64,000 nucleotides of DNA from Nostoc sp. FACHB-152. Lineage in GTDB: Bacteria > Cyanobacteriota > Cyanobacteriia > Cyanobacteriales > Nostocaceae. The notes beneath the pieces were generated by a model. The model was not told the DNA's origin and did no database searches. It worked only from the letters and a program-made list of their open reading frames with translations. Made by a program: the position numbers and the translations under genes. The stretch spans positions 62,001 through 126,000 of the forward strand of contig NZ_JACJRV010000001.1 in the NCBI RefSeq assembly GCF_014697475.1, read 5' to 3'. Of the stretch, positions 51,596 to 56,939 are shown in pieces. Numbering within the stretch: position 1 is the stretch's first letter; the number at the start of each line of letters is the position of its first letter.

Positions 51596-54500
51596 TCACT
51601 GACTATCAGGTTGATTTTGCGCGATCGCACTTAACTTAGCTAAAGATTTCGCTACTTTTGCGGCTTGTTCATTTGTCTGCTGGGAGTTACTGGCAACTTC
51701 GAGAATAAACTGGCTAGCAGTAGTAGAAATTTGGGCTTGGTTTGTAGCTACCTGCATCAGTTCCCCAATTAAGGTATTCACTTGGTGACTAATGGCGGTA
51801 ATTTGAGTCAGTTGATACTGAGTTTGTGCAACTTCTGTAATTGCTGCGATCGCTTGTTGTTCTCCTACCTCCATTAACGCTGTCACTTCGTTATTTGTAA
51901 TCTGAGTTTCTACAATCAAAGATTTGATTCCAGCAATGTCAGCATCTAACTGCTGCGCTAAAGAAAGGATTCCCTCTATTGTTGAGGTAAACTCTGCACC
52001 TGCTCCCTCAGTATGGACTGATTCAAACACAACCTTCATCGCATGACGTTTCATTTGTGATGCCATCTGAGCAATCAGGTTAACTTTTTCTAACAGTGTT
52101 TGCGATGGCTGCTCAAAACGTTTTAGCCTTGTAGTAGCTTCTACAACCGTCGAGTGAATGGTAGAAGTGTTGTCTAGAACTCGATTCATACCCTGCTGCA
52201 CAGCTTCTACTTGATGATAGATTAGCTGTTCTTGACTTTCTAATTCTTGAATACAGCCGAGCATTTCTTGAGCTAAATTAATTAATGCTTGAATTTGCTC
52301 ATAAGTATCTGTCACAGAGTTGATTTGGCTAAGTGCATTATCTGCCAAGGTTTCGACAATAGCTTCGCTATCTCTGAGTAGTTCTGAAGCTTGAGATTGC
52401 AGATCTTCTTTGCGCTGATACTGCTGTTGAAAGGCAGATTCCACTGATTCATAAGCTTGCTCTACTTGGTTTAAAAGCCGAGCATGGTCAAGGGCAAATC
52501 CCACTTGTATGGCTAACTGAGCCACTAAATCAATTTCAGGCTTTTGCCACTCTCGCGGCGCAGAACACTGATGCACAATCAATAAGCCAAATAATTGGTC
52601 ATCTTTGAGAATTGGTGCGACTAAGTTTGCCTTAACAGCAAAAGGTTCTAGTTGGCTGAGGTGACAAGCACTTAAACCTGCTTTGTAAATGTCATTGGTT
52701 GCTTGCACCCGACCGGCTCGATATTGTTCAACATAGCCTTCCACAAAGCAAGGGTCTTTAATTTTGGCGCGCAAAGCTTTCGGCAAGCCAGGAACGACAG
52801 CTTCAGCGATGACTGTGCCATACCAATCTGCATCAAACCCATATATCATTACGCGGTCAGCACTCAGGGCTTTGCGAATTTCTTCTACTGTATTTTTTAA
52901 GACATCTTCTTCATTTAGAGATGCCCGAATTCGTCTGGTAATATCTACTAGTAACTGAGTCAGTATGCCTTCAGCATCAATGCGTTGCAGCAATCTGGCA
53001 TGGTCTAGGGCAAACCCTACCTGCATGGCTAACTGAGCCATCAAATCAATCTCAAACTTTTGCCACTCTCGCGGTGCAGAACACTGATGGGCAATTAATA
53101 AGCCGAATAATTGGTCATCTTTGAGAATTGGGGCGACTAAATTTGCTTTCACAGCAAAAGGTTCTAGTTGGCTGATGTGGCAAGCACTTAAACCTGCTTT
53201 GTAAATGTCATTGGTTGCCTGGACTCGACCGGCTCGGTATTGCTCGACATAGCCTTCCACAAAGCAAGGGTCTTTGATATTGGCGCGTAAAGCTTTCGGA
53301 AAGCCAGGAACGACAGCTTCAGCGATGACTGTGCCATACCAGTCAGCATCAAACCCATATATCATTACACGGTCAGCACTCAGGGCTTTGCGAATTTCTT
53401 CTACTGTATTTTTTAAGACATCTTCTTCGTTGAGCGATTGCCGAATTCGCCTGGTAATGTTGATGATTACATGGGCTTGGTCGGCTCTAATGTCTATCTG
53501 TTCTACAACCCTGACATGATCAAGGGCAAATCCTAGTTGAGTGCCGATTTGAGCAAACAAATCAATCTCAGATTGTTGCCAAAGGCGGGGAGCAGAACAT
53601 TGATGTCCGATGAGTAAACCAAAAAGTTGATTCTTTTTGACAATAGGTGCAATCAAATTGGCTTTAACGGCAAATCGCTCTAATAGTCCGATGTGGCAAT
53701 CGCTGAGGTTGGCTTGATAAATGTTATCAATCGCCCGGACGCGTCCTTGCCGATACTGTTCAAGATATTTTTCTTGAAAACAGGGATCGGAAACGGTAGC
53801 CCACAGTATTTTGGGCAAACCGGGTGCTGCTGCTTCTTCGATAAAAGTGCCACCCCAAACAGAGTCAAAACGAAAGATAACTACACGGTCTATCCTCAAA
53901 GCTTGACGTACTTCTTCAATTGTCGTTCTCAAAACATCTTCTTCTGAGAGTGCTTCCCACATCCGGCGAGTAATGTTTGCTAGCAATTGGGAGCGTTCAG
54001 CTTCGGTTTCTTGTTTTGAGAGTAACTCTGGCAAATGATTTTGTAGTAGGTTGATGTTTGCCTTTAAAGCAACTAATTCATCTTTAGCCCCAATATCAGC
54101 TTGAGTCTCGATTTCTTCCCTGCGACATAGCCTGTTGACTAAAACAGTAGAAGTCTCAGCCGCAGACATAACTGGTCTTGTTAGCCGATTGGAAATTAAA
54201 GCCGCGATCGCACCTGCTGCTACCGCTATAATCCCAGTACCCCACAACAGCGATGAACGATAGTTATTCAGGGTCAGTTCCGCTTCTTGCAGTTCTGTTG
54301 CGCTCGCTTGTTTTGTTTGATTAATCTGCTGCGTTACCGACTGACTACCAAGGTAGCTGGCTATCCCAATAGTAATTACTGGTAGCATAGTTAGCGCGAT
54401 CGCCCAACCCCTAACTTTCGATTTCAAACTCAATTGCGACTGTCTTGGTTGCCAAGACACCAAAGATTGTGGGCGGTTGGAGAACATTTTGCGTCTTTTC

Positions 54501-54613
54501 CCAGGTCTATCGTCATTACTGTCATAATTGCTCGTTTGCTCAAAGCCTGGTTCAGCTTCAGTATTAGTACTATTGCTACGGTTGTGATCAGTGGAAGGCT
54601 GCGTTTGCGTCAT
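51596..54613 (-). CDS. PixJ-like receptor: three cyanobacteriochrome-like GAF domains and an MCP-like coiled coil
   Basis: This 1005-residue membrane protein has a cytoplasmic N-terminus, two membrane segments (about 70-92 and 121-142) and a short periplasmic loop. A HAMP-like linker follows, then three tandem GAF domains (about 205-370, 378-545, 550-715). Each GAF has the motif DPCF and, exactly 28 residues later, the Cys of SxCH: Cys278/306, 450/478 and 622/650. This is the dual-cysteine (DXCF) cyanobacteriochrome layout, so linear-tetrapyrrole binding and light sensing are likely but unproven. The C-terminal third is an MCP-like coiled coil whose tip (MASQMKRHAMKVVFESVHTE) lacks the canonical CheA-binding sequence. 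GAF2 and GAF3 are near-identical. Confidence 0.88.
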   Translation of the reverse strand: MTQTQPSTDHNRSNSTNTEAEPGFEQTSNYDSNDDRPGKRRKMFSNRPQSLVSWQPRQSQLSLKSKVRGWAIALTMLPVITIGIASYLGSQSVTQQINQTKQASATELQEAELTLNNYRSSLLWGTGIIAVAAGAIAALISNRLTRPVMSAAETSTVLVNRLCRREEIETQADIGAKDELVALKANINLLQNHLPELLSKQETEAERSQLLANITRRMWEALSEEDVLRTTIEEVRQALRIDRVVIFRFDSVWGGTFIEEAAAPGLPKILWATVSDPCFQEKYLEQYRQGRVRAIDNIYQANLSDCHIGLLERFAVKANLIAPIVKKNQLFGLLIGHQCSAPRLWQQSEIDLFAQIGTQLGFALDHVRVVEQIDIRADQAHVIINITRRIRQSLNEEDVLKNTVEEIRKALSADRVMIYGFDADWYGTVIAEAVVPGFPKALRANIKDPCFVEGYVEQYRAGRVQATNDIYKAGLSACHISQLEPFAVKANLVAPILKDDQLFGLLIAHQCSAPREWQKFEIDLMAQLAMQVGFALDHARLLQRIDAEGILTQLLVDITRRIRASLNEEDVLKNTVEEIRKALSADRVMIYGFDADWYGTVIAEAVVPGLPKALRAKIKDPCFVEGYVEQYRAGRVQATNDIYKAGLSACHLSQLEPFAVKANLVAPILKDDQLFGLLIVHQCSAPREWQKPEIDLVAQLAIQVGFALDHARLLNQVEQAYESVESAFQQQYQRKEDLQSQASELLRDSEAIVETLADNALSQINSVTDTYEQIQALINLAQEMLGCIQELESQEQLIYHQVEAVQQGMNRVLDNTSTIHSTVVEATTRLKRFEQPSQTLLEKVNLIAQMASQMKRHAMKVVFESVHTEGAGAEFTSTIEGILSLAQQLDADIAGIKSLIVETQITNNEVTALMEVGEQQAIAAITEVAQTQYQLTQITAISHQVNTLIGELMQVATNQAQISTTASQFILEVASNSQQTNEQAAKVAKSLAKLSAIAQNQPDSQ

Positions 54614-54929: not shown

Positions 54930-56696
54930 TTAAAAACCTGAGAGAGATATAGCTACTCGAAAACCTAGAAGATTACCCCGGCCATCCTGAGGATTCCAAC
55001 TACGATAGGCAGAACGACATAGCCTAGAAGAATTTTTCCAAGAGCCACCCCGAATCACACGAGATTTAACATCATCTTGAGATAACCATTCACTACCATC
55101 GGCAGGTGCGCCTTGATAATTTTCGTGCCAATGATCAGCGCACCATTCCCACACATTGCCATGCATATCGCACAATCCAAAGGCATTAGCCGGAAAACTA
55201 CCTACAAGGCTTGTTTGCCAATGATTGCCTTGTTCAATGCTAGAAAGAGAGTTGTTATAGTTAGCCAAACTAGGCGTGAGCATTTCCCCAAAGTGAAAAG
55301 GACTAGTTGTTCTAGCACGACAGGCATATTCCCACTCAGCTTCACTAGGTAGCCGATAATCTCGCCCTGTTTTTTCGGACAAGCGCGCACAAAACTCGAC
55401 TGCATCCTCCCAAGAAACCTGCTCCACGGGACGATTTATGCCCTTGGCACTAGCAGGTTCAGGTTCAAGCTCGCGGTTAATTGGTGGAAGCTTGGCTACT
55501 ATGCGCCATTGTGCTTGAGTAATTACAAACTTACTAATAAAGAAGGGTTTGACTGTGACAGAATGCTGTGGACTTTCACAATCAAATCTTTCTGGTTCAT
55601 CCTCTGGAGAACCCATGAGAAATTGTCCACCAGGAATGGATACCATGACTAAGTTGATGTCATTATCTAAATTCTCCGTAAAGCATTCAGCCGAGCCACG
55701 ACTACGGTTAATGTCATAGCTGGGTGTACCAAAGGATTTTTTCACAGAAATAGTAGCGGTTTCAAAGTCTAATTTTTCCAGAGGTAAGAATACTGTGTCT
55801 ACTTGCAACTGCTCAACTTCTAGGGGCGATGGCTCTGGCAAAGATGAAGCAGGCGAAACTAAGGATGAAGGTGAAAGCGGGAAGTCATAACTGGTGAGTG
55901 CTTGTAATGCTTCCACTGCTGATGGATAACGCAAAGTGTAGCGATCGCATATCATTTTATCCAACACATTAGCCAACTCATCACTCACCTGTACCTGATC
56001 TCGCCAAAGCAATTCTCCCGACTGGGGATTTTCTTGTAAAAGATGGGGGGGAATTCCTGTTAAGGCTTCAATACCCATCATTCCCAAAGCATAAATGTCA
56101 CTTGACAACCGAGGCTTACCTTTAGCTTGTTCTGTTGGAATGTAACCAGGAGTACCAACCACCACACTGGTACGAATCATCTTATAAATATCAATTGAAA
56201 GAATGCCAATTTCTTTTACAGAGCCAAAGTCAATCAAGACGAGCTTACCGTCTTGTTTGCGCCGCATCACATTTTCGGGCTTGATATCGCGGTGAATCAC
56301 ATTATTTTGATGGACATAGACTAAAACTTCTAAAATGTCTTGTAATAGCTGTCTTACATCCGCTTCTGCCATTTGCTTTTTTGGCACAATTTCTTTTCTC
56401 AGTGTGTTTCCTTCTACATAATCTTGAATAATGTAGAACTCGTTATCGATAGCAAGATGTGCCAATAACCGGGGAATTTGCGGATGCTCCCCCAACTTCT
56501 CTAAAATTACTGCTTCCTGCTCAAAAAGTTCGAGTACGCGAGGATGGGTATGCTTTGGCTTTAGCCGCTTGACTACGCACAGAGGCTTGCTAGGACGTTT
56601 TTGATCCCTAGCTAGATAAGTTTCACCAAAGTTGCCTTCACCTAATTGTTTGAGGATTTTGTAGCGTTTATCTAGTTGTTCGCCTATAAAGCCCAT
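54930..56696 (-). CDS. Ser/Thr protein kinase fused to an FGE/SUMF1-like domain
   Basis: This protein of about 588 residues has an N-terminal Hanks-type kinase: Gly loop LGEGNFGETYLA, Lys in CVVKRLKP, catalytic loop VIHRDIKPENV and DFG in VLIDFGSVKE. A linker of about 70 residues follows, then a formylglycine-generating-enzyme-like domain (SIPGGQFLMGSPEDEPER, YRLPSEAEWEYACRA, DMHGNVWEWCADHW and GVIRGGSWKN-like VIRGGSWKNSSRLCRSAYRS). The first of the two Cys used by true FGE is Asn here, so it is unlikely to be an oxidase and may bind ligand. No membrane segment is seen. ATG at 56696 is preferred over TTG at 56753, which would add 19 non-conserved residues. Confidence 0.9.
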   Translation of the reverse strand: MGFIGEQLDKRYKILKQLGEGNFGETYLARDQKRPSKPLCVVKRLKPKHTHPRVLELFEQEAVILEKLGEHPQIPRLLAHLAIDNEFYIIQDYVEGNTLRKEIVPKKQMAEADVRQLLQDILEVLVYVHQNNVIHRDIKPENVMRRKQDGKLVLIDFGSVKEIGILSIDIYKMIRTSVVVGTPGYIPTEQAKGKPRLSSDIYALGMMGIEALTGIPPHLLQENPQSGELLWRDQVQVSDELANVLDKMICDRYTLRYPSAVEALQALTSYDFPLSPSSLVSPASSLPEPSPLEVEQLQVDTVFLPLEKLDFETATISVKKSFGTPSYDINRSRGSAECFTENLDNDINLVMVSIPGGQFLMGSPEDEPERFDCESPQHSVTVKPFFISKFVITQAQWRIVAKLPPINRELEPEPASAKGINRPVEQVSWEDAVEFCARLSEKTGRDYRLPSEAEWEYACRARTTSPFHFGEMLTPSLANYNNSLSSIEQGNHWQTSLVGSFPANAFGLCDMHGNVWEWCADHWHENYQGAPADGSEWLSQDDVKSRVIRGGSWKNSSRLCRSAYRSWNPQDGRGNLLGFRVAISLSGF

Positions 56697-56939
56697 ACTT
56701 ATTGCTAAACCAGATGGTAGTGCCTGCTGGTAGTGTGGGATAATTAAATTCAAGATGAGGCTAGTTTAGACAATGCCTCTATCTGGTGAAGTAAAATTGC
56801 CTTGGCAAAGTAAAAAAATAATGTATTGTTGCTAATCTATATTAATTAGCGGCAGGTTTTTCAAGCCCTAATCTTATCATTATCAAGGGTAGTAAAAACA
56901 TACTTATTTATGGAAAAGTTTAAAATATCAGTCAACTGA

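Follow-up and report, generated by a model that had tools for sequence, protein, structure and literature searches.

The 64,000-nucleotide stretch of Nostoc sp. FACHB-152 DNA analysed here, referred to as the window, encodes a receptor with three tandem GAF domains of the DXCF cyanobacteriochrome type. We consider it rather probable that this protein is a membrane-anchored dimeric photoreceptor whose sensors have been conserved, whose connection to the CheA phosphorelay has been abandoned, and whose signal is read by another partner. The start region of the protein, MTQPS, is common to the window receptor and its orthologs, and the following features were delineated in the window:

51596..54613, minus strand: gene for the tandem DXCF cyanobacteriochrome, the window receptor (1005 aa; stop codon at 51596-51598)
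54185..54415, minus strand: two hydrophobic, presumably membrane-spanning helices (residues ~67-90 and ~119-143; read by eye)
54017..54184, minus strand: HAMP-like linker (residues ~144-199; by-eye reading only)
53501..54016, minus strand: GAF1 (residues 200-371; cysteines 278 and 306)
52985..53500, minus strand: GAF2 (residues 372-543; cysteines 450 and 478)
52469..52984, minus strand: GAF3 (residues 544-715; cysteines 622 and 650; 87.8% identical to GAF2)
51599..52468, minus strand: C-terminal MCP-like helical hairpin, degenerate in sequence (residues 716-1005; Pfam, AlphaFold, Foldseek)
51947..52066, minus strand: position of the hairpin tip, eroded, which in MCPs meets CheA/CheW (residues ~850-889)
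54930..56753, minus strand: upstream neighbour, a Ser/Thr kinase fused to an FGE-sulfatase domain

The N-terminus appears polar and is followed by the two hydrophobic helices, separated by a loop of ~28 residues, all as read by eye; Pfam reported no HAMP domain in the receptor at E ≤ 0.1. The three GAF units, each recovered as a GAF stretch by Pfam, are contiguous and 172 aa long. As the preliminary description had stated, each of them carries a DPCF cysteine (278, 450, 622) and a CH cysteine (306, 478, 650) exactly 28 residues apart, and these are the only pairs with this spacing among the 11 cysteines of the protein, although they do not count as three independent observations because GAF2 and GAF3 are 87.8% identical. 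The pairs correspond to C494/C522 of TePixJ (PDB 3vv4), which is matched by GAF1, GAF2, and GAF3 with E values of 3e-38, 7.5e-47, and 6.9e-47, respectively. Among solved structures, TePixJ is the closest to GAF2 and to GAF3, and both cysteines of each align with its DPCF and ECH motifs. GAF1 has its best structural match in 6oap (1.6e-41), where DQYF replaces DXCF, and TePixJ comes second; GAF1 and GAF2 line up free of indels, and the cysteines of GAF1 were placed by this register. On these alignments, the cysteine pairs reflect homology and not chance.

The resemblance to the blue/green DXCF domain of TePixJ (PDB 3vv4, 4fof, 6p58) extends to the chromophore pocket, as the equivalents of D492, C494, C522, H523, and N535 are present in all three GAFs with the DPCF and CH motifs in register. 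In the available part of the TePixJ report (PMC6955287), C522 holds ring A and C494 adds to C10 of the bilin, and D492, Q526, N535, and H523 surround the moving chromophore. The Q526 position is occupied by Gln in GAF2 and GAF3 and by Leu in GAF1, and because of this substitution GAF1 is probably tuned differently from the other two. In a tree of 130 GAFs, the family joins TePixJ in a 75-row clade (support 100/98), and the references AnPixJg2, NpR6012g4, and Slr1393g3 fall in another clade of 47 rows; DXCF is missing from some GAFs of the TePixJ clade and present in some of the other. By sequence, the three GAFs are thus DXCF cyanobacteriochrome domains related to TePixJ and set apart from the red/green cyanobacteriochromes, in agreement with the earlier assignment; a position outside the cyanobacteriochrome clade, which would have refuted it, did not emerge from the tree. 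The suggestion of a membrane protein with three potentially photoactive sites is upheld at the same level, and so is a probable blue/green colour class. In the accessible portion of PMC11284453, typical DXCF domains are described as blue/green switches that bind phycoviolobilin. The genome contains one bilin-reductase-family gene, which makes phycocyanobilin the likely precursor for the window receptor.

In the AlphaFold model, the C-terminal 290 residues form a pair of long helices running antiparallel to each other (2-150 and 157-284; mean pLDDT 81.8, pTM 0.45), and the top seven Foldseek matches at E ≤ 0.001 are all chemoreceptor chains. The predicted two-helix hairpin and these matches indicate that the C-terminus is MCP-derived. 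Its sequence has diverged markedly: it scores 21.8 bits with Pfam MCPsignal against a cut-off of 34.6, and the domain is absent from the full-length Pfam scan of the receptor at E ≤ 0.1. The 16 family C-termini scored give 18.8-76.8 bits, and 13 of them exceed the cut-off (the window, L038, and L042 are below), as compared with 141.5-148.5 bits in three canonical relatives; no Pfam MCP match was found in four further family members (L043, L014, L019, and L022). With our own MCP HMM, the window receptor reaches 89.6, versus 347-410 in the leave-one-out controls. In MCPs, conservation normally peaks at the tip. Of 31 tip residues that do not vary among the three canonical relatives, the window receptor retains 9; outside the tip it keeps 37 of 111 canonical residues, so that erosion reaches beyond the tip. 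The intact CheA/CheW-contacting tip of PixJ-type chemoreceptors was not found in the window receptor, whose tip has lost its special conservation. Hairpin length and fold are nevertheless preserved, and when the window is compared with the four closest orthologs examined, dN/dS is 0.17-0.37 for the C-terminus and 0.03-0.10 for the GAFs, ratios that are rough, as dS is near saturation. A C-terminus of kept length and fold, with dN/dS well under 1, appears to be still useful and may bind something, perhaps CheW.

The genes around the window receptor encode a fasciclin, a GST, a HerA-like ATPase, a sigma-70 factor, the Ser/Thr kinase-FGE protein, and XisI; no che genes were found among them, nor the cheA/cheW/cheY cluster of PixJ-type loci. 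The upstream Ser/Thr kinase-FGE gene is retained in the near relatives L038, L039, L040, and L041, lies on the other side of the receptor gene in convergent orientation in L046, and is not retained in L043. A scan for promoter-like sites (5 versus 7.1 expected) and terminator-like sites (1 versus 2.8 expected) was uninformative. The XisI gene lies at window:58171-58509, and a large ORF at window:58933-62613, by eye a pyruvate:ferredoxin oxidoreductase of the NifJ type, carries in its middle a three-fold repeat, SGRDKVPSITADARG.

A CheA-like protein is encoded by the gene that follows the receptor gene, on the same strand, in 12 of 35 distinct orthologous loci (L044, L047, L048, L064, L066, L068, L101, L102, L103, L105, L107, and L110). 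Six of these genes, directly downstream of the receptor, are located as follows:

L044:8902-10698, plus strand: CheA-like gene
L048:8428-10200, plus strand: CheA-like gene
L047:8775-10784, plus strand: CheA-like gene
L064:1842-3542, minus strand: CheA-like gene
L066:8455-9753, plus strand: CheA-like gene
L068:8314-10341, plus strand: CheA-like gene

The neighbours are composed of Hpt, CheW, and REC domains and lack a kinase (Pfam on six), and in L066 no Hpt was found either. HATPase was detected in none of the twelve with our own HMM at E ≤ 1e-3 and in none of the six with Pfam; the same HMM gave 218-458 bits for the control CheAs of the window's genome, and Pfam found HATPase in two canonical CheAs. 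When aligned by Blast to the canonical CheA of that genome, the L044 protein matches through residues 26-272 and 296-593 and skips ~587 residues of the canonical protein, its HATPase among them. The twelve proteins form one clade (98/96). The REC aspartate is retained in all twelve, and the Hpt histidine is kept in three of ten alignable copies (L044, L048, and L068) and replaced in seven, two of the twelve proteins being without an alignable Hpt. On the ortholog tree, a quick tree with some long branches, the presence of the CheA-like gene requires at least three changes; we read this pattern as an ancestral operon from which the CheA-like partner was lost several times, the absences scored in L041, L100, and L114 not being firm, as they rest on at most ~1.5 kb of downstream sequence. 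The window receptor has no adjoining CheA-like gene. A kinase-less copy elsewhere in its genome was not found among the matches listed, the best of which are four CheA places, all HATPase-positive, with weaker matches in the CheW-REC range at C57 and C46. Across 17 loci that either lack the CheA-like gene or are close to the window, with L038 included as a near relative, no neighbour is common that could represent a new partner gene, and only lineage-local neighbours were seen.

These data bear on whether the protein is an ordinary PixJ-like phototaxis receptor, whose diverged hairpin joins arrays and steers a CheA encoded elsewhere, for example at G000:C117. The preserved hairpin and the 13 family members above the Pfam MCP cut-off are what such a receptor would show, and the genome does hold an intact locus of this kind: the AnPixJ-like locus on C117 (L070:4882-11811) encodes a tandem GAF-MCP receptor and, after it, a CheA that has Hpt, CheW, and REC domains. 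That locus differs in its red/green-type GAFs (nearest structures 3w2z/6bhn), its MCPsignal score of 141.5 bits, and its HATPase, and it makes canonical light-chemotaxis signalling available separately in the genome. We regard the phototaxis explanation as unlikely, given the poorly retained tip, the score of the window receptor below the Pfam cut-off, the lack of a kinase core in the adjoining CheA-like proteins, and the outright loss of the hairpin in the following relatives, which have no recognisable output domain:

L067:6118-8727, minus strand: headless receptor
L111:5669-8266, minus strand: headless receptor
L112:5822-7888, minus strand: headless receptor
L115:6008-8614, plus strand: headless receptor

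All four proteins stop 9-11 residues past the last GAF, within a QAY(E/Q)-like sequence, and no MCP remnant was detected by tblastn near their genes. The L065 receptor extends only through the first hairpin arm, and together with L114 these five form one clade in the ortholog tree. The headless count leaves out L114, which reaches a contig end, and seven further frames of ~870 aa. Among L067, L111, and L115, dN/dS is 0.13-0.20 for GAF2-4 and 0.27-0.35 for GAF1, which is without its cysteines in all three; both cysteines are also missing from GAF3 of L067. Internal deletions in the C-terminus were observed in the L043 and L014 receptors.

Conservation of the sensor was surveyed in 37 orthologs, which have two to four GAF repeats and contribute 111 GAF units with a minimum length of 160 aa. 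Of these, 88 carry both cysteines, 17 carry neither, six carry the DXCF cysteine alone, and none carries the canonical cysteine alone; equivalents of D492 and N535 are retained in all 88 dual-cysteine units. At the second GAF position, the pair is complete in all 35 cases examined; at the first, it is complete in 21 of 36, and both cysteines are missing in the other 15. Rows of three units in which every unit is dual-cysteine occur in 15 of the 37 orthologs, the window included. Among the first 58 units, 52 had both cysteines and six neither (Fisher p 2.5e-8), a value to be read in light of the relatedness of the 58; a tree-based test of joint loss found three supported pairs (p 0.25). Joint loss of the two cysteines as a strict rule was discarded in view of the six of 111 units that keep the DXCF cysteine alone; in these sequences, the rule holds only in the form that the canonical cysteine never occurs without the DXCF cysteine.

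The relation between the repeats themselves was addressed through synonymous distances. GAF2 and GAF3 are separated by 0.14-0.84 inside a gene (14 genes), and the equivalent GAF2 or GAF3 units of other genes lie at 0.81 or more from those of the window, often at saturation. In the window (window:52469-53500), the distance is 0.52 inside the gene and 0.81-1.01 to the nearest ortholog, L038, itself an exception with about equal within-gene and between-species distances. The lower distances inside the gene suggest that GAF2 and GAF3 have undergone gene conversion or have been re-duplicated repeatedly.

Could the receptor then be a decaying relic of a phototaxis operon, devoid of present function? 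The lost CheA-like neighbour, the eroded tip, the C-terminal deletions in L043 and L014, the truncations in L065 and the L067 clade, and the 15 first GAFs without cysteines would all fit decay. However, the frame is open in the window and in nearly all relatives examined, with an internal TAG in one match, the second GAF has kept its cysteines throughout, and the low dN/dS of the GAFs, both near the window and for GAF2-4 of the headless members, suggests that the GAFs stay under purifying selection, which makes a functionless relic improbable. That the GAFs bind no bilin, their cysteine pairs being inherited but unused or serving redox sensing, is very hard to credit, even with six units elsewhere in the family that keep only the DXCF cysteine and 17 that keep neither, when both pocket cysteines and the D492/N535 equivalents occur together in every dual-cysteine unit, the match to the solved bilin-binding TePixJ is close, and the canonical cysteine is never found alone.

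The reading we favour, a conserved three-DXCF photoreceptor detached from the CheA phosphorelay, can be put as a mechanism. By analogy with TePixJ, each GAF would attach phycocyanobilin through its CH cysteine and convert it to phycoviolobilin; in the dark, the DXCF cysteine would add to C10, giving a blue-absorbing state, and blue light would release this cysteine from the bilin, giving a green-absorbing one. Comparison of the loci suggests that the ancestral receptor adjoined a CheA-like protein without a detectable kinase core and that, in the line leading to the window, this neighbour was lost and the CheA/CheW-contacting tip eroded while the GAFs were conserved. Light would then no longer reach the CheA phosphorelay through the window receptor. 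Illumination of the membrane dimer would instead twist the tandem GAF helices, and these light-driven changes in the anchored GAF/coiled-coil dimer would pass the signal to a partner other than CheA, candidates being other GAF-MCP receptors that would mix with it or, in the clade of the window, the upstream Ser/Thr kinase. More tentatively, a widespread cyanobacterial photoreceptor family may have left the CheA phosphorelay stepwise under continued selection for dual-cysteine sensing, the output being the light-switched membrane GAF dimer itself, which could, for example, mix with other GAF-MCP receptors and modulate their arrays. Loss would have begun with the kinase core of the CheA partner, followed by the partner itself, then by the MCP tip and, in one clade, by the entire MCP end.

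The suggestion in the preliminary description that a membrane receptor with several bilin GAFs would be unusual in itself is not supported: in the available sections of the respective reports, PixJ has one to five GAFs and an MCP domain (PMC13383048), and PtxD has seven GAFs, at least six binding bilin and two using a second cysteine (PMC5812497). A tandem three-DXCF array with an MCP end is hence of a kind already known, and the loss of chemotaxis output is what differs. The preliminary description mentioned neither this degenerate output nor the CheA-like neighbours without a kinase in related loci. As far as those sections go (PMC5812497, PMC13383048), receptors of the PixJ/PtxD type share with the window receptor a membrane anchor, tandem bilin GAFs (predicted here), and an MCP-derived C-terminus. 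The published ones have an MCP domain with CheA, CheW, and CheY homologs alongside; the window receptor has neither che genes nor an intact tip, and its relatives have a kinase-less CheA-like partner. TePixJ itself differs from the window receptor, which has three active-looking GAFs and an eroded MCP tip. The closest parallel to the CheA-like proteins is CheA3, a CheA homolog without autophosphorylation, which retains a damaged kinase domain, whereas none is detectable in the proteins of this family; the part of the CheA survey available to us (PMC10782961) reports HATPase_c in every CheA collected and mentions a single CheA3 whose kinase is broken. No description of the present receptor family was found in the titles and abstracts of the open-licence literature.

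Light-sensing GAFs are usually read through their attached output domain. A family with constrained sensors and stepwise decay of the output, up to its complete removal in one clade, offers a natural series in which to explore what a photoreceptor deprived of kinase-coupled output is still able to do, and GAF2 and GAF3, nearly identical and separately retained, would allow a direct test of why tandem sensors of the same colour are kept.
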